DNA from: Pilatotrama ljubarskyi
Lineage: Eukaryota > Basidiomycota > Agaricomycetes > Polyporales > Polyporaceae
Assembly (NCBI GenBank): GCA_022385805.1
Contig: MU277802.1
Span: forward strand, 2,330-28,194
Direction of reading: 5' to 3'
Length of the DNA: 25,865 nucleotides
How positions within the stretch are numbered: position 1 is the stretch's first letter; every line of letters begins with the position of its first letter. The position numbers were made by a program, and so were the translations under genes. This document shows, one piece after another, positions 5,781 through 25,865 of this stretch. The notes beneath the pieces were generated by a model. It was given only the letters and a program-made list of their open reading frames with translations. It was not told where the DNA came from and ran no database searches.

Positions 5781-7217
5781 CTAGTCCAGGAATTCGATGG
5801 AGGGGGAGCGTGTCTGACGTGTGCGCGGAGCACGCGAGGGTCCAGCCACGATCTCGAGGGACGGGGAGCGCGTCCAACGCGCTAATGGGGCGCGCGATGG
5901 TCCAGCGATGATCTCGGCGGACGGAGAGCGCGTCCAACGTGTGATTGGGGCACGAGATGGTGCAGCCACGATCTCGATGGAAGGCGAGCGGCGCCGACTG
6001 TGCACAGATCGCAGACTGGCCTGCGCCTGCGAGCCTTGTTGAATGGACATGGCACACAGCTCCATCTCCAAGCCGAGAAGCGACATCTGGCGCATGCCTA
6101 TCCGGCGAACCAGCAGAGTATGCGATTGCGCACGCATTGAATAGGGCACTCGGGACTGGCAGCCCTTCCAAGTCGTGACGTTGACATCCCACACCTCGAT
6201 GTCATTCCCCGGTAGCGCCGCCGGGGACCCACGGAGACGCCAGTGATCACTGAGCAGGATGTTCCCGAGGGGACAGATCTCGACTGTCTCCACGACAGGG
6301 AAGTCGTCATCCTGGGCACGGTCGATATCAGTCACGCCTCACGCGATGGTCCGCGGAAGTCTCACCTCTGTCCAAACGACCACCCATGCTCGGCTCTGGT
6401 ATGCCGGCCGGGAGGTAATGGCCGAGCGCGCCTGAACAGCGATTGCATCCGCGATGTCTTGCGACATCGCTATGGCCTTGCGATGTGTCTCGAGCGTTTG
6501 AAGATAGTGGCCCAGCCCGACGCACACCTTCACACTCGTCAGCCGCACGAGCAGCATCGACGCAAAGTCGTCGACATGCATGTCGGACGTGGTCGACGCG
6601 AGCAGCCTCCAACCGTTATCGTGCTCGCTCCAGTAGTCGAAGGGGAACCACGGCACGTCATGTGCAGCGCGAATGCAGGCATAGTCCGTGATATGTACTT
6701 TGTTCGGGGAACGCAATACAATTTCTTGGGGCTGCGGCTGCTCATCCTCCTGAAGGGGTGATAAGCACGTCGTCACGGAGCGTCAGCATTGTTTCCCACC
6801 TTGCACCAGAAAACCAGGAGCATCGTGCGCTGAAGGACGATGATGAGTACGCGGGACTGGGCACGATCACAGTTGTATGTACCTGGACTTTGCCGCCTCC
6901 ACGCTTGACGTCCGCGTTGTCGCGCGCGATGGGCCGCAGAGCCTCGTGGTCACGGTTCGCCGCATTCTGGCGAGGTGTCAGCCACGTACGCGGGCGGTTC
7001 GAATCAAGACGAACCGTGAACACTTGAATGTCACCAGTGCCGTGGTTGTCGTCGTTGTTGTTGTCGTCAGTCTAGTCTAACTGCGTAAGCAAGGATCCTC
7101 GCGATGCACTCCAAAACTCACCTGGATGGGCAGTGGCGAACGCCGCGGCGCGCTGGGGGCACGCTTGTTTGCCACCTTGTGCGCCTGCTCGACTCGCGAC
7201 TTCTTCTCGCCGCGCAT
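5781..7217 (-). CDS. Hypothetical protein, 3' half of a MITE-interrupted gene
   Basis: Five phase-0 exons are visible: 7217-7122, 7071-6883, 6829-6800, 6749-6366 and 6311-5781. Introns are 50, 53, 50 and 54 bp, and the total is 1230 bp (409 aa). The exons encode a basic start (MRGEKKSRVEQAHKVANK), an Asp/Asn run, RTMLLVFWCK in a 30-bp micro-exon, a middle domain with VPWFPFDYWSEHDNGWRLL and CPLGNILLSDHWRL, and a C-terminal tail of 20-residue repeats. I do not recognise the family. The ATG at 7217 overlaps the edge of element A. Reading across the element, the frame continues into the 3' end of the gene at 7703-9573, so this is probably the second half of one longer gene rather than an independent one. 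Confidence 0.55.
5793..5992 (-). repeat. 60-bp coding tandem repeat (about 3.3 units)
   Basis: The unit translates on the minus strand to RSPS-x-EI-[VI]-A-[GA]-PSRAP-x-x-R-x-T, 20 residues. Three full units and a partial unit end at the stop codon. The DNA shows the same period through the recurring GGAGCG and GTCCA blocks. Confidence 0.75.
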
Positions 7218-7704
7218 CAGTACTTCTGTAAAAGTCTGACGAGGTCTGACGCAGACCTCTCAGACCCTTCAGACCAGGTTTCAGACATATTCAGACAGGC
7301 CAGATGGTCAGAGCTCAGAGGTAGCAGGACGGTTGTTCAGACATTTAGAGTTTTCATGTTTTGCCCCTGAAACGTCCTTGTGGAGATTGTTAAGCCAATC
7401 TATGCATCCTTCTTACATATTCCACAGCTATGTGAAGTCTAACTCGACTACTATCGCCTCATATTGACCCCAAGTTGATGCATTCTGGACAAGCCATTTC
7501 ATGCCATTGGCATCAATAGTTTCTTTCAGGAAGGCTCTGAATTAATTACAGAGTTTATACTACACATGTGTAAGGTGCTCCATGCTGCAATATGCAACGA
7601 AAGGCCCCTAGGTAGCAGCAGACCTGGCAGGTTGGACAAGTCTGAGGGGTCTGACTGAGAAAAGGTCAGACATCCCAGATGCTCAGAGATTTGCGAAAGT
7701 ACTG
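7218..7704. mobile_element. TIR element (MITE-like), copy A, 487 bp
   Basis: It is bounded by CAGTACTTCTGTAAAAGTCT at the left and the reverse complement of CAGTACTTTCGCAAATCTCT at the right. It aligns end to end, in inverted orientation, with copy B at 9803-10286. The subterminal 120 bp carry at least seven GTCTGA/TCAGAC hexamers. No ORF spans it, so it is non-autonomous. Both copies are flanked by AT/AT, which may be a 2-bp target duplication or part of the TIR; at copy A a GCGC duplication is also possible. Superfamily is not assignable from this alone. It lies inside a coding region (see the flanking gene halves). Confidence 0.8.
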
Positions 7705-9573
7705 ATGCGCTGTGCAGCCTTGAGCGGCCGCGAAGCAATCGCTACCTTCTTGCGTGCTGGGTCGGTCTTTTTCGTCGGGGCCACAGGAGCTTGCCTGGCA
7801 GCGCGCTCCTGACGCCGTTTAGCCTGCACCTCCTCGTCTGCGGCGCGTCTGGCGACCTTTGCTGCGGCGTCCCGCTCGCCTTGACGCACTTTGGCCTCCT
7901 TTTCTGCTGCGCGTTGAGCGGCCTTCTCCATGGCCTTTCGCTGGCGCTCACGAGCGTTGGCCTCCTTGGCCGCGGCTTTTTGGGCTGTTCGCGCGCGTCG
8001 CTCGTCAGCCTCTCGCACTTTGGCGGCCCTGTCGTAGGCACGCTGATCTTTGATTTCGCAGAGATGGTCGGGGTTTGGGCCATCTTGATCCTTCGGAGCG
8101 AACACCGCCCCGCACCTGGGCCCGAAACACTGCTCGTTGTGTCAGTCTTGCCCACCTGGACATGTGCTGGGTACGTACATAGACACTCCATGCACCCGCA
8201 TACCCCTCTTTGTAGCATAACGTGAACTTGAACCTCGACGTGTTGCCGCACCGTCCACATTCGACGTGACGGGGTTTGCGATTACCCCAGCCGAACAACC
8301 AGCTTCAAGAGCATGTCTGAAGTCAGCTCATGGATATACTTGCTTGCGACGTCGGAACGTACGTAGTGCTGGAGCCTGTGGAACAAAGTTCGTAGTCAGC
8401 GCAGAGAACGTGCAGCCAAGGCTGGCAACTGTTGCATCGAGGGTCGTACCAGTGTCCATCAATAAACCTACATTGATCGGCCATGTCGACCTTTTAGCCT
8501 CTTTGACCAAGTCAGGTGGAACGTCCTGAGGTATATGCTGTCACGTCATGAATCAGTATCCTTGAAGCTTTGAACGGTAGAAAGCGTCACTTACAACTGC
8601 TACGGTGTAGGTCTGAAGACGGAAATAGGGGCGTGTATCACCGGCACGCGGCGGGGCGAAGTTGAAGTCAGTCTTGACGAAGCTGCCGAGAGGGTAGCGA
8701 TGGGCAGAACCACTACTTCTGGATGCGGAGATGTTGTGTCCGCTCTCCTGATAATCGATCTCCTTCTCCGGGCGAGCATTCTCGTCCACACCCTCCTGTG
8801 TACATGGTTCGACATCGGTCACCCAGTCTGCTTTGATCAACGACAGTGGAAGTTGAACATACTGTTGAATCCTCTACACTCGCTGCTGGAGTCCTGGGCG
8901 ATGCCGACGAATCGGTTGAGGATGTAGGTGAATCAACCCATGGGACATCGGCATCACCAGGCTCAGTATGGGCTAAAACCACCTGGTCGACAGGTGCAAT
9001 CCTGCCCTCGTCGGTAACACGATCTGGAGCGACAACGAGGGACGAGGGAGTGCTGCCTGCAGGAGACACGCCGGAGAGTCTTTTGCTCCTGTAGAAGACA
9101 TCCCAGAGGCGCTGACAGCACAGTAAGCCTATATACATGCAAACCGGCCATATTCATCACATACCCGTTCTTCGGCGGTGGACGGAGGAGGGGGATCGAG
9201 CTTAATGTAGAATGATCCCTCACCGGGTGGAAGTGGGTCAGATGTCAAAGGCATAACGAACCAAGCGGAGGACCTGGGGTGCTGAGATGTGAGCAGCTCG
9301 TCACCTTTATAATGCTATGACGCATGGAGTCCAGTCATACGCGGCAGATGCGTACCCGGACTCGGAGTGTTGCTCCCCATGCTGAAGACGCTCTCTCACA
9401 TCAAGGCCGTTAAACACGAGTTGCGATAGCCTATCAAGATGACCTGGAGATACAGCATCAGCAACGCTTATCGTGAGAGCGTCGAACTCACATGACTGAG
9501 AGAAGATCGTGCTAGTGTGGCCCTTCGTGGTCGCTCGGACCGGATGATGAGCAGCACAATACTGGTGCGCTGA
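7683..9573 (-). CDS. Hypothetical Cys-rich/coiled-coil protein, 5' part of MITE-split gene
   Basis: Phase-consistent exons are 9573-9492, 9443-9356, 9273-9165, 9111-8880, 8827-8595, 8490-8363, 8302-8179 and 8129 onward. Introns are 48, 82, 53, 52, 104, 60 and 49 bp. The N-terminus is not resolved. The protein has a Ser/Thr/Pro region, then Cys-rich blocks (DPRCNSCQPWLHVLCADYEL, VECGRCGN, LCYKEGYAGAWSVYCFGPRC) that could bind zinc, then an Arg/Lys/Glu/Ala coiled coil of about 110 residues. If unspliced, it terminates at 7683 with its last eight residues (ISTFANL and neighbours) encoded by the terminus of element A. If element A is removed, the frame runs on into 7225-5781. Two acceptors (8491, 8303) are AAG, weaker than usual. 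An alternative is a shorter 230-aa gene starting at the ATG at 8484. Family unrecognised. Confidence 0.5.
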
Positions 9574-9802
9574 CTAGAAGCGCTGCACCGCAGACGGCCA
9601 CGCGGCGCATGCGCAGCAACATGTGGTAGAGAAACGACGGTACTGTATTGTCGAACTACATGTGGATGGCGGAAGTGAGTGCGTCACTTCTGGGTTGAGA
9701 ACGGGACACATCCGGCGAAAAGCTTGCCTAATCCACGGCGGGCCGTGTCACATAATGGGTGTTGCCGAGCTACCGGTACCGCAGCTTGCCAGGTCTAGGC
9801 AT

Positions 9803-10286
9803 CAGTACTTTTGCAAATCTCTGAGCGTCTGGCACGTCTGAGCTTTTCTCACTCAGACCCTTCAGACCTGTCTACCCTGCTTCTGCTGCTTCCCAGAAGC
9901 CTTTCATCGGGTCTTTTGGTGTCAAGTATGTTGTAAATATGTAGGACAAACCTCATGACTAATTACAAGCTCTTTAGAACAAGAATTGTGCTGCCAATAG
10001 CATAGAAAGGCTCATCCAGGAGGTGTCAACTTGGGGACAATACGAAGTGATAGCAGTTTAGTTACACATCACATAGCTGTGTAATACATAGTGAAGGTAC
10101 ATAGGATGAGTCAGTGATACACACGAAGAAGTTTGAGTCGCAAAACACAGAAGCTCATCATGTCTGAACGGCCATCCGACCACCTCTGAGCTCTGACCGT
10201 CTGATGTGTCTGAATATGTCTGAAACCCGGTCTGAGTGGTCTGAGAGGTCTGTGTCAGACCCTCTCAGACTTTTGCAGAAGTACTG
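9803..10286. mobile_element. TIR element (MITE-like), copy B, 484 bp
   Basis: The left end CAGTACTTTTGCAAATCTCT corresponds to the right end of copy A, and the right end (reverse complement CAGTACTTCTGCAAAAGTCT) to the left end of A. The two copies are therefore inverted, about 2.1 kb apart. Interior blocks also match, such as ACAGCTATGTGA and CCCCAAGTTGA after reverse-complementing. Subterminal GTCTGA/TCAGAC hexamers are dense at the right end. No ORF. It lies between the unresolved 5' end of the split gene and the 3' end of the F-box gene. The stretch 10287-10639 holds a TATATA at 10408-10413 but no gene I can support. Confidence 0.8.
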
Positions 10287-10639
10287 ATGGGGCTAATGAG
10301 CCATAAACTTGTGCATGACCGGTACTGATCGTGGCGTGTCGCATTCCCCTTTCTCTACAGCCCAGTGCCAGTGCCGACGCCGTACAACAGCCTGTTTTCC
10401 ACACCAGTATATAGTCGCTGCATATCTGCATCTCCTACGACAGAGACTCGCCGTCCTTCAGCATGCCTGACCTCCTTAGGAGTTCCCGCACCTAGCATAC
10501 ATAGCCCTGGCGCCTTCTAGATCCGCCCGGCAGCTCGAACGGCAGCACTCCGGGGTCGACGACGGGCGGCGGACTTGGGGCGATCGATATGCCATATTGT
10601 TCATCAGGACGCTGTTCTCCGATGGAAGAGGCATACAAT

Positions 10640-12437
10640 TCAGCGCGGAACGTCAGCAAAGTGAACGATACGTAGAACCTCGAACACCATGCGCACCGTG
10701 AGATCGTGGTCGTACTGTGCAATCGGAGGTAAGGGCCGCCCTTCCGAGTCTTGGCGGATGACGCGGAAAATTGCCCATTCATGACCACTAAAGGTGGGAC
10801 GCAACATCTTGATTAACGTCACAGAGGGTGCCAGATGCTGGGCAAAAATGTCGGCTGCATGGTCCTGAGCTAGAGAGAATGTCTTCATATCCTGACTCCG
10901 GAAGTTGTGCGCGCCGACAAGGCCGGGAAGATAGTAACGTCTTGGCGTCTCGGGAAGGTCCAAATGTAGAGAGATGGTTCGAAGTTGTTCCAGGCGTCCC
11001 AGAGTCTGCGCGATGGTTTCCTGTGAGGAGGGCGTTAGAATGCGAATAACAGGATACACAGTTCCCGATGCACTCACAATATCCACTCCCGATCCGGCGG
11101 CCTGCGACGTCTGGTACCGAAGGAGCTTGAGCGACTTGAGAGCAGGAAAAGCAATGCTGACGAGTTGCAGGAGATCGCCTTCCGATTGGTCCTGGTGGTA
11201 CTCTATCTCCAAGTCCTCCAGCGCGGAGATGTTACAGCTGTTCAAGATGCACGAGAGGTCTCGAGAGGGTAAGAGGGGGACACGCCACGGGAGCTTGGAC
11301 TGATCCGGCGACCACCGGCTACATGCCAGATGTGGAACGTACCGCAATGCGAGACTGCGGAGGGTGGAGGGGAGATGAGCGTACAGTTGATCTTCCACGC
11401 GCGGAAATGATACAGTCAGTCGCTCCAGGTCAGGCCAAGGATACGTGACGTCGCAATCCGGCGGCCAGATGGCCTGAGGCAACGTATGAGACGGATACGG
11501 GAACATGAGCTCCAGCACGCGGAGCTTGGGCATATTCCTAAGGGCACATACATAACTTGTTGATGGCTCGACGACCGGTGGGTGACCACGAAGGCTGAGC
11601 TCGTGAAGGGAGGCCCAGCTGAGAGAAGCAAAGGTATCCAACAGCGAGAGTTGGGAGGGTAGCGCGATAGCCTCTAAGGAGTCATGCAACATTGAAAGAA
11701 TGACATCCACGGCTTCCTTCTCTGCAGGGTAGGGATGGGCCGCATCGAGATATTCCCTTCGTAAGTACCGGAAAGATGTGAGTGGGGCGGGAGCGACGAT
11801 GGAGAGCGCTGATGGCAAGGGCGATTCGGGCGAAAGCAGGTAGTTGTCGCATATGAGCTCGCGCAACTGCGGTACGGCCAGAATTGTTTGCACGACAGAC
11901 CACGGAAGACTATGGTCCGAGCCGGGATACCGTGATATGAAGGACACGCGTGACAGCTGGGGCATACTCCTAAGAGCCTTGCTGAGAGCGGTTGTGTCAT
12001 AGGCACAGCAAAGGAGGGCATCTTCTGTACCAGGCATAGGCGATGGAGCCTCCGACCACGCTCGCAAGGTGCGTGACCCGCTACACTTGTCTATGAAGGT
12101 GATTGACCTGCTCCGATGATGTGAGTATGATTCGCTTTCCATAGGCTCGTAATAGTATAGATTAATGTACCTGATGTAGGGCCACAAGACGTCAGGGAGG
12201 AAATGGCTCGAGATGGATCCTCTCATGAGAACGACGCATTGACGAAAGAGGACCGGCATGCATAGCTGTCGTACAAGCTTACAAGTTCGCGAAAAGGGCT
12301 TCAGCGCGCGGCAAACGAGCAACTCCTCTAGGATTTCATTGAAGACATCCTCGTTAAGCCGTAGAAGGCTGCAAAGCTTAGCATGCGGCGGGAGCCTAAG
12401 GCAAGGAGACTCACGAGGATTGACTTCTCGCTGGCAT
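10640..12437 (-). CDS. F-box/LRR-like protein
   Basis: The model is a 23-bp first exon (12437-12415), a 46-bp intron (GTGAGT donor, TTTGCAG acceptor) and a 1729-bp second exon, giving 583 aa. The start ATG at 12437 is chosen because it splices in frame into LNEDVFNEILEELL, the N-terminal F-box helix pattern seen in basidiomycete F-box proteins. It is followed by RALKPFSRTCKLVRQLCMPV and LFRQCVVL, which resemble the rest of an F-box. The remainder contains irregular leucine-rich stretches (PQLRELICDN, LEDLEIEYHQ, FPALKSLKLLRY) spread over about 450 residues. Such proteins usually act as substrate adaptors of SCF ubiquitin ligases; the substrate is unknown, and this role is inferred from family only. 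This class is highly expanded in Agaricomycetes. Confidence 0.75.
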
Positions 12438-16390: not shown

Positions 16391-17669
16391 TTGTGTGTGA
16401 GCGTGGACGGAGCCTATTGCTGTGCATTCAAGGATGGTTCCGAAGGAGGAGCGAGTAAGAGTTGAGTACGAGGGGCCATGTCGAGTATACCAGCAGGACT
16501 CAGGTCAATAGACCGTTCGCATTTTACTGTGTTCGTGGAGCACGGAGCGTCCGGACGATCCAGACCGAATGTGGCAAGTCGCAAGGGGCGCATCGACGAC
16601 GACTGACGCCGCGTCCCAGGCGCATACCCGTCCATAACTACGTTGGCGACCCCGTAGCCTAAGCTCGCGATGTGATGCTGGCATGCAACAGAGTCTTCAT
16701 GAGTGTTTGCGGGCTGAGCCGATCCCAAGAGGCTACAGACAGCAACACCAGCGGCATCCGGTCGCAGACGCCCTGTCAGAAGCCGGCGTCCCGGGATCAC
16801 GGGCAGCGGAGCGAGGTGGCTCTTCCTCCCATACGCGGCTGCATCGCTCCAGGGATCTGTGAAGAAAATAAAATCAATGCGGTCTATCGACATGAGTCCT
16901 GCTGACAGACACCGATGGAATCGCCGCGTTACATCACCCGCCTCCCTCACGGCGGATCCGATGAGTGAATTGTATAACGGAGCACGAGGTGCCGGCAAAT
17001 AAAAAAGAACGTACTGCATAATAACAAATACTTGACTAGACCTGAAACATATCTCGGGTCTTCTCGATTTACCTGTCAACTGAGGCGGATGTTGAATTGG
17101 GCACCGCACGCTGGTTAGGTACGAAAGGCAGTATACGGACAATCACAGGCACCGTTCCCAACGTTCCACGCGGCTAGCCTTGGGAAAGGCAGGTGTCGAG
17201 GAGGCACGACATAGAAACGCCACATGTCGTTTGTGAATATGAAGCATTGTGCCGCAACTCGCCCACGATGTCCAGCAAGTGCATTGCCGCTGAGATGTAC
17301 TGCGACGACAGGGGTTAAGTATCTTCATTCATCCCCAGAAGGTGCATGCAAGGCCCACTGAGGCGGCTGCCTTGTGTTACGACGAGTCGCAGGCCTAGGC
17401 CAAGACTTAGCGAAGCCCGCTGATATCAGTGCTTTCTTTAAGGTTGTAGTCGCGCTCAACATGCCTACCTCGTTTTCTTCTAATGGCTCTGCTGCGCTGA
17501 GCGTCTAATAGCGGATCTTCTCAGCCTTCAGAGCCCGAGCGCGCCAGGTACAAGTTCCGGCATGGTTTTGCTGGGTTCACTGCCTAGAGACTATTCATGC
17601 GTACGGCTTTCTGCCAGTAAACATATATCTGGTTTCCAGTAGGATTTTTCTCAAGAATCAGAGTCGATT

Positions 17670-17725
17670 GTGAGTGAGTGAGTGAGTGAGTGAGTGAGTG
17701 AGTGAGTGAGTGAGTGAGTGAGTGA
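17670..17725. repeat. (GTGA)14 microsatellite
   Basis: An uninterrupted tetranucleotide repeat of about 56 bp, roughly 430-485 bp upstream of the start of the Mug190-like gene. Confidence 0.95.
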
Positions 17726-17770
17726 AGTAACGCAAGCGCAGCGCATCCAGGTCGAAGAGTCATCGATTCA

Positions 17771-17791: not shown

Positions 17792-18154
17792 TGATTAGAC
17801 GCCCATTCCTGAACTCAACCTTACGTAAGCAGTCTTATCATGGCGTCAGCGCGGGCGTCTACCTAGTAAGTATACTCATCTCGACCCTCTGCACTTTCTT
17901 CACGACTTCCTTCTCTTTCTGGCTTCATATCTATTGCCGTAGTTTTCGCTAACACCTCAACAACATGAGTTTCGTAATATACTTGCTGGAAGGATAGCTC
18001 TTTGGAGCTCCAGGGAATCCTCTTAGCCGCAGCTAACCCGTCTGATCGCACGACTCCACTATGACATTATCCCAAGAAGCGTGAAGTTACGCGCAGTGAA
18101 GTGGGCACAAAACCATGACCAGGCTCCTTACAACCATACCGCGACGTACCCAGC

Positions 18155-21100
18155 ATGGCGCACAAGCTGGCAGAGCCATACTCGGGCAAGAACCCGGTTC
18201 CACACATCGCTACGAAACTCACGTCGCTCGTTAACCCGCAGAAGGCAACCGACGCCAAGGCTCAACAGCTTCAGGATCACAGCGTTCATCGCGAGGAGAA
18301 GCAGACCGAGAGGAACGCGCGGAGACTCGCCAAGGGCCATATCATGCATGTCACCGACCCCACTACGGGCGAGGAGCTCGACATCTGCAACGCCGACGAG
18401 GATCCGGACGTCAGGTCCAAGGGAGACAATGTTCTCCACCAGGACTTTCCCCCGCCAAGTGAGTATCCTGTTCAGCATCTTCCAGGGTCTGTACTCAACG
18501 TCTCAGACTGGAAGGAGCACAGGGACAAGGTCGTCTCGATCACGAACACAAGCATCGGATACATCTCCGCCGCATTCGTCGCCTCGTTCGTCTTCTCCAC
18601 TCTACTCTCCAGCGCCACCGCCCGGGTTCTGTGTCTGCTTCCCCCAGCGTTCCTCAGCTACGCGCTGCTTTTTCGCATGAACAAGGCCACCGAAGCAGAC
18701 TTCGAGCAGCGTATCTGGCACGCCGAGAGAATGCGCGGCCTCGCCGCGGGCTCAGACGTTGACGGCGACGGCAAGGTGACGGACAAGGAGCGCATGCGCG
18801 AGAGCGCAGAGTGGGCGAACGCCGTCATCCGCGGACTCTGGCCCATCCTGAACACCGACCTCTTCAGCTCCCTCGTGGACATGCTCGAGGACATCATGCA
18901 GTCCTCCGTCCCGACGTTCATCGTAAGTTCTCGCCAGTTCTCGGCTATGTCATGTCTTCTGATTTTGTGCGCCTCAGCACTCCGTTCGTATCGCTGACCT
19001 CGGCCTGGGATCGAACGCTGGCCGTATTACCGCCATTCGCTCACTGCCTGACGCCACCACACGCGATACGGGCGACCCCACGAAGGGCGAAGACAGTCTT
19101 GCTGCCATGGGCATCGACGCGGACACGATCAGTCCTGACGATCGCGAAGTGCTTGATGGAGACCACGTCAATCTTGAGGTGTCGTTCGCGTACCAGGGCC
19201 TGCCGAGCGGCCAGTCTGCGGAGAGCAAAGCGCAAAACATACAGTAAGCGAGCGGCTCACTGTTTGACCTCTGCAGCAGCTAATGCTACACCACAGCTTA
19301 CTTGTGGAATTCTTCTTGGGAATGAAGGGAGTGTACGGCTTCCGAGTCCGTGAGTGCATCTGTACTGTCCAATGCAGGGGCTCGTTGCGCTGACTGTTTG
19401 TCCACAGCCGTGTGGGTTGAGATCACAGGCATTGTCGGGACGGCGCGAGCGCGCCTTCAGCTCATTCCTGACCCTCCTTTGTGAGTTTGTCCGTTACGCG
19501 AGTTGTCAGAGGCCAAACTTACATGTAATGCAACAGCGTGAAGACGACTCTGATCTCACTCATGGGCCTCCCACGCATCACGATGTCCGCCGTGCCGCTC
19601 AGCAGAGCACTGCCCAACGTCATGAGCCTGCCGTTCATCTCGGGCTTCATCTCCAGTGCGCTCGACACGGCCGCGGCAGAATACGTCGCTCCGAAGAGCC
19701 TCACCCTCGACCTCCAGCGGCTCATCAGCGGAGATGACATCAAGAAAGGTTAGCCAGCCTCTTCCGTTGCCGTGGGCATCGATTCACGTTGTCGCAGATA
19801 CGGAGGCTATCGGCGTCCTCGTCGTGCACATCCATCGCGCGACCGGGATCAAGAAGATGGACACGACCGGCAGCTCGGGTACGCACTCTCACGTTGGCGG
19901 AATTGTGCGCTTTCTGACCGTGTTTCGGACGTCTTCAGCAGATCCATACGTCACGCTCACGTTCTCGCGGCTCGAGAAGCCGCTGTATTCGACGCGCATC
20001 ATCAAGGGAGACTGCAACCCCGTGTACGAGGAGACGGCCGTGCTGCTCGTGGACGTCAACACGGTCAAGCTCCGCGAGAAGCTCAGCTTCCAGCTGTGGG
20101 ACTCGGACCGCATGAGCGTCGTACGTCCCCTCCGTTTCTCGTAGTGTATAGACACGCTCACGTCGCCGCAGGACGACATGATGGGGTTCGCGGAGGTCGA
20201 CGTCGTCGACTTTATCCGGCAGCGAGGCACGCCCACCCGGCGCGTCTCGCCGCTCTCGAGCCCGGACTCGCAGCACCGCCCCGGGTCGATCGAGTACACG
20301 GTAGGGTACTACGGGAAGTGGCCGCCGAACAAGGCGCTCAGCACCGACGGCTCGGACCCGAGCCTGCCCGACGACCTGCGTGCACGCCCCGAGTTCAAGG
20401 AGGCGCGGTCGGCGGCGCTGAACGATCTCGAGGCGGCGGTGCTCGTGACGACGCCGGATCCCGAGTGGCCGAGCGGCCTGCTCAGCGTGCAGGTGCATGA
20501 GATCCGGGACTTGGCGGTGAAGACGCTGGGAAAGGAGCGCAGGGGTGGCAAGGGCCGTGAGGGCGAGAAGGGCCAGGACGAGGACGAGGACACGGCGGAA
20601 GAGGGCGAGGGCCTGCCGTCCTCGTACTGCACGATGTGCGTATCTCAGTCAACCATTCCTTCTGTGCCCTTGTGTGCTGACGCCGTTGCGGAAAGCTCCC
20701 TGAACGACGAATTGGTATACGAAACTCGCGTCAAGCCGATCACGAGCTCGCCCATATTCAACGCGGGCACGGAGCGCTTCGTCAGAGATTGGCGAAAGGC
20801 GCACGTCACCGTCACCGTCAAGGATTCGCGCTTGCGGGAGAACGACGTTGTCCTCGGGACCGTCTTCCTGAAGGTCGGTGAAGTGTTATTATTACTGGCT
20901 ACGGTACGCTGACCATTCCTATATAGTTGTCCGAAGTCTTCGTGAATGCCTCGGAGGTGACGCGCTGTTACTCGCTCGAGAAGGGCTTGGGCACGGGCCG
21001 CGTTCGGATCTCGCTGCTCTTCCGACCCGTTGAAGCGAAGCTCCCGCCGAACCTGCTCGGCTTCGACACCGGTACCCTCGAGATCCGCGACGTCTCCGTG

Positions 21101-22132
21101 CAATCTGAGCTCGGCGATCTCGCCAAGTGCGAGATTCGCCTGAAGACGACTACCGCCGAAGCAGAGGAGAAGCTATCCCGCAAGACGGTGGAACGGCGCG
21201 GCGAGAAGCTCGTCTGGTCGACGGAGGGTGCCTCGAAACTGCCCGTGCGGCAGCGCTACGCCTCAGCGCTACTCATCTCTTTCCGCGACGCGTCGGGCTT
21301 CAAGAGCTCGGGGAGGAAGGCGCTCGGCGTGCTCTGGCTCCGCGACATCGTCGACCGCGCGGAGGGCCCGGTGGAGGTGTCGCTCTGGCGGGCGAAAGAC
21401 GGCGACTACTCGCGCCTGAAGCTCAACTACGTGCCCCCAAACGGCGACCTCTCGTACTGGGACAGTGACAACAAGAAGATCGAGCGCGTTGGAATCGTCA
21501 CGCTCGACCTCGTGTTCTGGCCCGGCATCTCGGAGAAGCACCACGAGATGCTGAGCGGGGCGGGATCGAAGAAGCGCGCGGCCTGGGACGAGTACAACAG
21601 GCAGAAGTCGGCTGGCTTCCGCGACGCCATTGGCGAGCTCGCCACGCAGGTCCCGCAGGACCATCAGGCGAGCTCGAGCCGCGAGACGCAGGAGCGGGAC
21701 GGGGAGCAGATGGGCCCTGAGAAAACGGATGAGACGATGACTGACGGTCCGGTGAATACGCAGGAGGGCGACGACGAGGACGCGGGGCAGGATGAGGAGG
21801 GCCACGGCACGAACACGATCGTCTCGGCAGACGACGTAGAAGTTGAGTCGCAGGCGCAAGCCGACGGCGAGTCAGGCGAAGAGGAGCAAGATGGAGAGAG
21901 CGAGAAGTCGGGAGACGGTGACAGCGGGAAGAAGAAGCGCGGTGTGATCGGGAAAATAAAGGACTGGCGGCAGCACGAGAAGGAGCTGCACCGCGACCAC
22001 CGCGGCATCATGCAGTTCAAGCCGGCGCGCACTGCGGAGTGGCTGAAGGACAATGTCGAGGACGGCGCGCATGCAGTGAAGGAGCGCTTCAAGATGAAGG
22101 CGCGGCACCCTGATGTCGAGACCGAGGTCTGA
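18155..22132 (+). CDS. Mug190-like SMP and C2 domain protein
   Basis: A ten-exon model (18155-18922, 18978-19243, 19297-19349, 19408-19480, 19537-19748, 19798-19878, 19942-20120, 20172-20635, 20696-20873, 20927-22132) sums to 3480 bp, 1159 aa, in phase throughout. Near residues 130-175 lies a hydrophobic hairpin (SIGYISAAFVASFVF, LCLLPPAFLSYALLF). Residues about 205-455 form an SMP lipid-transfer domain (WANAVIRGLWPIL, VEFFLGMKGVYGFRV, FISGFISSALDTAA). C2A follows at about 460-565, with acidic loops KKMD, SDPYV and WDSDRMSVDD that could bind calcium. A second C2 at about 645-790 is interrupted by a Lys/Glu/Asp-rich insert. Another beta-rich, C2-like region precedes a long acidic tail. The order matches fungal Mug190 and tricalbin-type proteins that tether the ER to other membranes and move lipids; that role is inferred. 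It converges with the RPC6 gene. Confidence 0.88.
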
Positions 22133-25583: not shown

Positions 25584-25865
25584 ATGACTGACTACACTAC
25601 CACCACCACAACCAATCTACTACTAAGCATTACAGCCGCTGTATGTGTGCCTTCAGAAAGTGAAGGTGTGCTCATCGGACGAGCCGCTTGTGCTAAACCA
25701 ATGCTCTCCGCCTCGGGGCGTGAGCACAGGTGCATCAGCTATGTTAGGCTAATGCTCTCCAACTCTCGAGGTGAGCACCGGCCCGTCAGCTGTGTTAAGC
25801 TAATGCTGTCTGAGGCTCGACGTGAGCACAGGCCCGTCAGCTGTGTTAAGCTAATGCTGTCCGCT
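25584..25865 (+). CDS. Partial ORF built on a 17-residue tandem repeat
   Basis: From the ATG at 25584 the frame is open for 94 codons to the window edge. It starts MTDYTTTTTTN, passes through a mixed segment, and then enters 51-bp tandem repeats read as MLS-x-x-R-x-EHRPVSCVKL. A short frame with its own ATG at 25538 lies just upstream and would be an upstream ORF. Because 51 is divisible by three, the repeat stays in frame whatever its copy number. Whether this is translated is unknown; no family recognised. Confidence 0.3.
   Translation, partial: MTDYTTTTTTNLLLSITAAVCVPSESEGVLIGRAACAKPMLSASGREHRCISYVRLMLSNSRGEHRPVSCVKLMLSEARREHRPVSCVKLMLSA
25700..25865. repeat. 51-bp minisatellite (3 units plus partial)
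   Basis: Units begin at 25700, 25751 and 25802, with a 13-base fourth at 25853 cut by the window edge. Each opens AATGCT and ends near TGTTAAGCT (TGTTAGGCT in unit 1). Units 2 and 3 are closer to each other than to unit 1. Confidence 0.9.

Follow-up and report, generated by a model that had tools for sequence, protein, structure and literature searches.

A recently active, non-autonomous MITE of the PlavakaB type has split a coding exon in the wood-decay basidiomycete Pilatotrama ljubarskyi, a polypore. The copy concerned, A1, lies in the window, by which we mean the whole stretch of 25,865 nucleotides of contig MU277802.1 that was analysed. We consider A1 to be a young, gene-interrupting element that was moved by a Plavaka transposase and whose most likely effect on the gene is interruption, and we give this reading a probability of roughly two in three. 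The chief alternative, in which the ends of the element serve as splice sites, is weighed against it below. Coordinates of the element and of the gene are collected in Table 1.

Table 1. Positions of the two MITE copies and of the interrupted gene in the window
Feature	Position	Strand	Remarks
Element A (copy A1)	7215..7707	-	non-autonomous PlavakaB-type MITE, 493 bp, in coding exon
Left TIR of A1	7215..7225	+	CATCAGTACTT; minus-strand reading gives two putative acceptors, TTTTACAG with its end at 7226 and AAG with its end at 7223
Right TIR of A1	7697..7707	-	on the minus strand putative donor CATCA/GTACTT, intron start 7702
Target-site duplication CG of A1, left copy	7213..7214
Target-site duplication CG of A1, right copy	7708..7709
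Interrupted exon, 5' part	7708..8129	-	aligned to Trametes cingulata P0005; exon start approximate
Interrupted exon, 3' part	7122..7214	-	GTGAGT donor at its end; colinear with P0005
Downstream exons of the same gene	5781..7071	-	gene model 7071-6883, 6829-6800, 6749-6366, 6311-5781; 6746-5784 aligned to P0005
Element B (copy B1)	9800..10289	+	490 bp, from the sister subfamily of this MITE; GG duplicated; a minus-strand gene on either side

Structure of the element and of the split gene

A1 starts with CATCAGTACTT, finishes with AAGTACTGATG and has CG on either side. It carries three private substitutions in 493 bp. In the unspliced state the frame of the interrupted gene runs into a stop 7 codons inside the element.

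The gene was compared with a homologue from Trametes cingulata, P0005, which aligns on both sides of A1 (8129-7704 and 6746-5784). At the empty site, in which one CG is kept, the alignment with P0005 is free of gaps (PLKAAQR/GEKKSR against PLSAVQR/VEAHSR), which argues that A1 split what had been one continuous ancestral exon. The joined sequence, read without the amino acids that the putative splice residue would add, likewise has PLKAAQR-GEKKSRVEQAHKVANKRAPSAPRRSP ungapped opposite PLSAVQR-VEAHSRIGQALKVRSKRAASARRRSP.

A preliminary description, made from the letters alone, had noted element A with its TIRs, had called it a MITE inserted in coding sequence, and had read the minus-strand gene on its two sides as one frame once the element is removed. 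The element was borne out, with its ends, at 7215-7707, and the CG duplication is added here. The single frame agrees with the colinearity of P0005, and insertion into coding sequence is firmly supported by the colinear empty site. The accompanying gene model, with thirteen exons adding up to 2661 bases or 887 codons, was not reproduced: with a rough gene finder the model came to 15 exons and 834 codons including the stop. That the summed exon length was divisible by three is no evidence, because the model had been chosen to be so. The exon piece 8265-8179, missed by the rough gene finder, is supported by P0005; the exons that the preliminary description placed upstream of about 8265 found no support in this one homologue.

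Where the window gene was aligned to P0005 we saw no further stop or frameshift, except a stop inside a predicted intron. Since the insertion of A1 is so young, an intact remainder fits a spliced gene and a freshly broken gene alike. A DNA search of the same assembly for a second, empty allele, with 7708-8300 as query, returned only the window itself.

Two further observations concern this gene. The last exon contains 60-bp tandem repeats (5794-5990), through which the motif RWTRSPSxEIxAGPSRAP recurs at the C terminus. At 2254-2382 the plus strand codes for a segment that shares 58% identity with the N terminus of the T. cingulata protein P0005; judged by this similarity, the gene family may have a relative, or an N-terminal part that has been displaced, at this place.

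Two subfamilies of the MITE in the genome

Searching the genome (33.1 Mb, 173 contigs) yielded 21 full copies of 468-502 bp as assembled, 9 belonging to subfamily A and 12 to subfamily B. B11 and B12 were counted as full though both hold N runs and B12 also has a deletion. Left outside the 21 were truncated or gap-cut copies on contigs C1, C6 (168 kb), C122, C130, C7, C15 and C96 and a gap-interrupted copy at C7:59158-60524.

The majority sequences of A and B have the same ends and differ at 124 of 490 aligned positions. Mean pairwise divergence was 1.6% among the A copies and 0.7% among the B copies, and three of the latter (B3, B4, B6) were identical to the B majority sequence. A 2-bp target duplication of varied sequence flanks all full copies but A3 and B5 (19/21). 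The start CATCAGTACTT and the end AAGTACTGATG were found in 20 of the 21; the remaining copy, A4, has one internal change (AAATACTGATG) and keeps the TGATG end. Short length, TIRs, the target duplication and several near-identical copies place both A and B among the MITEs.

The private substitutions of the copies lean towards G>A and C>T (9/18 in A; 10/14 in B, where six of the 14 fall in copy B10), and this lean may reflect cytosine methylation. B1, which is close to the consensus, is separated by a few hundred bases from the gene split by A1, on its upstream side; the two subfamilies flank or split one gene.

Affiliation to PlavakaB

In the accessible part of a 2025 study of fungal transposons (PMC12730594), PlavakaB families are described with CATCA..TGATG termini and 2- or 3-bp duplications, and Plavaka is grouped with EnSpm/CACTA, Mirage, Chapaev and Transib. 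As far as that text describes the PlavakaB transposons of Agaricomycotina (CMCT clade), A and B resemble them in the termini, in the 2-bp duplications and in the host, an agaricomycete with Plavaka transposase genes. The difference lies in the transposase, which the 490-493 bp elements lack: the ORF list contains no frame of at least 60 aa wholly within A or B.

For the Plavaka transposase family, 75 matches were obtained in the genome; many are neighbouring pieces of one gene. A diverged end that departs from the search pattern by one mismatch and is 82% like B over 68 bp (E 3.6e-14) was located on contig C68, about 1.7 kb from a Plavaka domain (PF18759). The 6.5 kb examined there, which close in an N run, did not contain the opposite end of this Plavaka element. 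Taking the matching termini and 2-bp duplications together, A and B are best read as non-autonomous MITEs tied to PlavakaB and, as such, as relatives of CACTA/EnSpm. We infer the link to a Plavaka transposase from the termini, the duplications and the one shared end.

B-type ends also abut N runs at C7:59158/60524 (L034), C7:572782 (L030), C15:31378 (L036) and C96:47154 (L072). These are probably the ends of longer, perhaps autonomous, copies that the assembly did not carry through.

Copies inserted in coding exons

A copy was accepted as a coding-exon insertion on the codon score of its empty site, plus homology where available. Eight of the 21 full copies were accepted: A1, A2, A5, A7, A9, B3, B5 and B11. 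The other 13 were not, several of them being doubtful cases. All five accepted A copies share one orientation relative to the coding strand, and the three accepted B copies have the opposite one.

The loci of A2, A5, A7 and A9 are on contigs C84, C38, C6 and C52, respectively. A2 lies in a DUF6532-type gene, with a Pfam match that falls just below the cut-off and adjoins the junction. A5 interrupts a DUF6589 gene, and P0016, a paralogue from the same species, reads through the site (VTTPG-RRKTDAD vs KVTPG-RRKTDAE). The gene hit by A7 encodes a CmcJ/NvfI oxidoreductase (E 2.4e-71), and here the junction falls within an ungapped part of the NvfI alignment. The relatives of the A9 gene have PF20151; the insertion site, about 16 codons before the stop, is beyond the aligned part. 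For B5 an F-box match (E 2e-7) was obtained with a query made by joining two frames, and this copy shows mismatched frames and no duplication.

The rough gene finder also put A6, A8, B2, B4, B6, B9 and B10 in exons, on one or both strands, and these were dropped. No long frame with a good codon score crosses the site of A6 or B10, and the codon scores at B2, B4 and B9 were weak or negative. B6 has a doubtful sense frame (scores of 3.6 and 10.2 on the two sides), and A8 a doubtful antisense frame with its first in-frame ATG about 135 nt past the site. The frames at B7 and B8 were weak too. An overall orientation bias was rejected as evidence, the five A copies pointing one way and the three B copies the other. 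The contrast between the subfamilies (5:0 vs 0:3) has a chance of 1/56, or of 4/84 with B6 taken as a sense copy, both computed after the fact; counting B6 or A8 would weaken it.

Splice-site potential of the TIRs

The preliminary description had suggested that the TIRs could act as splice sites, which would make the MITE introner-like: spliced at its TIRs, it would leave 5 or 6 codons in the protein, insertion into an exon would be tolerated, and each such copy would amount to a new intron. As a statement about sequence the suggestion holds. The 11-bp TIR contains the self-complementary AGTACT and with it both GT and AG, and on either strand the element begins with CATCA/GTACTT and finishes with AAG/TACTGATG. 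Both sites named in that description are present, CATCA/GTACTT as donor at 7702 and TTTTACAG/AAGTACTG as acceptor with its end at 7226, and their stop-free product, AAQRI-KVLMRGEKK, was reproduced.

The putative splice residue totals 15 nt, made up of 13 nt and the 2-bp duplication; with the CAG acceptor of A1 it totals 18 nt. The frame is kept in either case. One of the three insertion phases puts a TGA in the frame of the residue. The phase is 2 for A1, A7 and A9 and 0 for A2 and A5, and a TIR-to-TIR splice would be open in all five; without splicing their frames stop once 7 or 13 codons of the element have been read. This speaks for splicing, as does the joint behaviour of the four copies other than A1: A2, A5, A7 and A9 all have the orientation and one of the two phases that leave the frame open, for which the chance is about 0.012 at even odds, calculated after the fact. 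The accepted B copies are divided. The splice would be open in B11, and also in B6 and A8 if these are coding, but B3 and B5 would meet a stop.

Among all the GT-AG pairs that A1 contains, an open frame results from three; each has the TIR donor, and in two the acceptor also lies in the TIR. The CAG acceptor, gained by A1, counts in favour of splicing, and in the introner-like reading it would be the stronger acceptor. It is nevertheless private to A1: the other eight full A copies have ACAC at this place, which leaves only AAG, and in A4 the AAG is lost as well. The donor is atypical, with T instead of G at +5 of GTACTT, and the putative intron would measure 477-480 nt. By comparison, the annotated protein P0017 of the A5 gene has introns of 55-142 nt with G at +5 in all five, one gene being a small yardstick. 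The related end on C68 reads CATCAGAACTT, with GA rather than GT at the donor place and no GTACTT after CATCA; GT at the donor place is thus not general among related ends.

Annotated proteins and reports in the literature

An annotated protein joining both sides of an insertion was not found for any of the three genes tested, those of A1, A5 and A9. P0017, which maps to contig C38 with full identity over its five introns, is flagged as partial and has its start 41 nt beyond the element. Among the candidates of about 458-1458 aa listed for A1, none came from P. ljubarskyi. The A9 gene's own protein was absent from the matches listed, though a relative from the same contig was present. The lack of a joined annotated protein in three genes is moderate evidence against splicing, as gene models are not transcripts.

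Among the titles and abstracts listed by the literature searches, none reports that Plavaka elements serve as introns. PMC12730594 uses 'intron' three times, always with regard to gene prediction.

Probable interruption of the gene and the alternatives to it

We propose that a Plavaka (CMCT-clade, CACTA-like) transposase moved A1 by cut and paste into the coding exon and that 2 bp were duplicated in the process. Translation would then stop 7 codons inside the element, and most transcripts would probably not lose it precisely. Some TIR-to-TIR splicing may still occur, since the palindromic AGTACT holds both dinucleotides, GT and AG, and what is left behind stays in frame. The best reading is therefore the one that the preliminary description had mentioned as its simpler alternative, a gene-breaking insertion. 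It is supported by the empty site colinear with P0005, the 2-bp duplications, the PlavakaB termini, the Plavaka transposase matches in the genome with the B-like end on C68, the atypical donor and intron length, the partial P0017 beginning past A5, the missing joined protein for A1 and A9, and the stops met by two of the three B exon copies. Against it stand the five accepted A exon insertions, all in an orientation and in phases that TIR splicing would tolerate, and the lack of a further lesion in the aligned part of the window gene, bar the stop in the predicted intron.

Splicing at the TIRs has precedents, the best of them, in mechanism, being maize En/Spm (dSpm), which was reportedly found by Menssen et al. 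in 1990 (cited in PMC4219821) to have splice sites at its termini. As in the present case, a CACTA-type element lies in an exon and has the splice sites at its ends; splicing is said to have been shown there, whereas here it is possible in sequence. Introners offer a second precedent. Those of Aureococcus bring both splice sites with them and lengthen the transcript by 12 bp, according to the accessible part of PMC9860276, and A and B, in which splicing is putative, would similarly add codons in frame. Like the introners and introner-like elements in the available text of PMC9860276 and PMC4457414, they are repeated elements with TIRs and duplications in coding exons, but there are 21 full copies here and hundreds there, and many of the present copies, 13 of the 21, lie outside accepted coding exons. 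The fungi named for introners in that part of PMC9860276 are Pezizomycotina or ascomycetes.

In its full form this reading would make the TIR an intron end that works in either orientation, insertion in two of three phases would add five codons, and the MITE would be a nascent basidiomycete introner present in five genes. We regard this as possible but rather unlikely. If it were true, a cut-and-paste transposon would be giving rise to introns in a basidiomycete, and would do so at several young insertions with a known empty-site frame; the build of the TIR would explain why the frame is kept, in two phases of three and in either orientation. If the element is not spliced, the MITE family, tied to PlavakaB, is still a clear-cut and recent case of gene interruption.

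Partial exonisation appears improbable. It would pair the TIR donor with internal acceptors, or remove a number of short introns from within the element, and would give a longer, altered protein. The gene finder did trace an open path through A1 with four introns of 52-107 nt, the first, of 52 nt, starting at the TIR donor; but this path scored 93 against 101 for the single-intron model (intron allowed at neutral score), the finder's splice weights being rough. That A1 merely lies between two separate genes that were never one is a reading we reject with near certainty: each side of A1 has its own open frames, but a single T. cingulata protein aligns to both and spans the junction without a gap.

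Other features of the window

The plus strand at 18119-22129 contains a gene with MUG190-like SMP and C2 domains. On the minus strand an open frame of 598 codons (10643-12436) gave a weak leucine-rich-repeat match, below the curated cut-off. Two tandem arrays were also noted, one of GTGA at 17662-17737 and one with a 51-bp repeat at 25689-25862.
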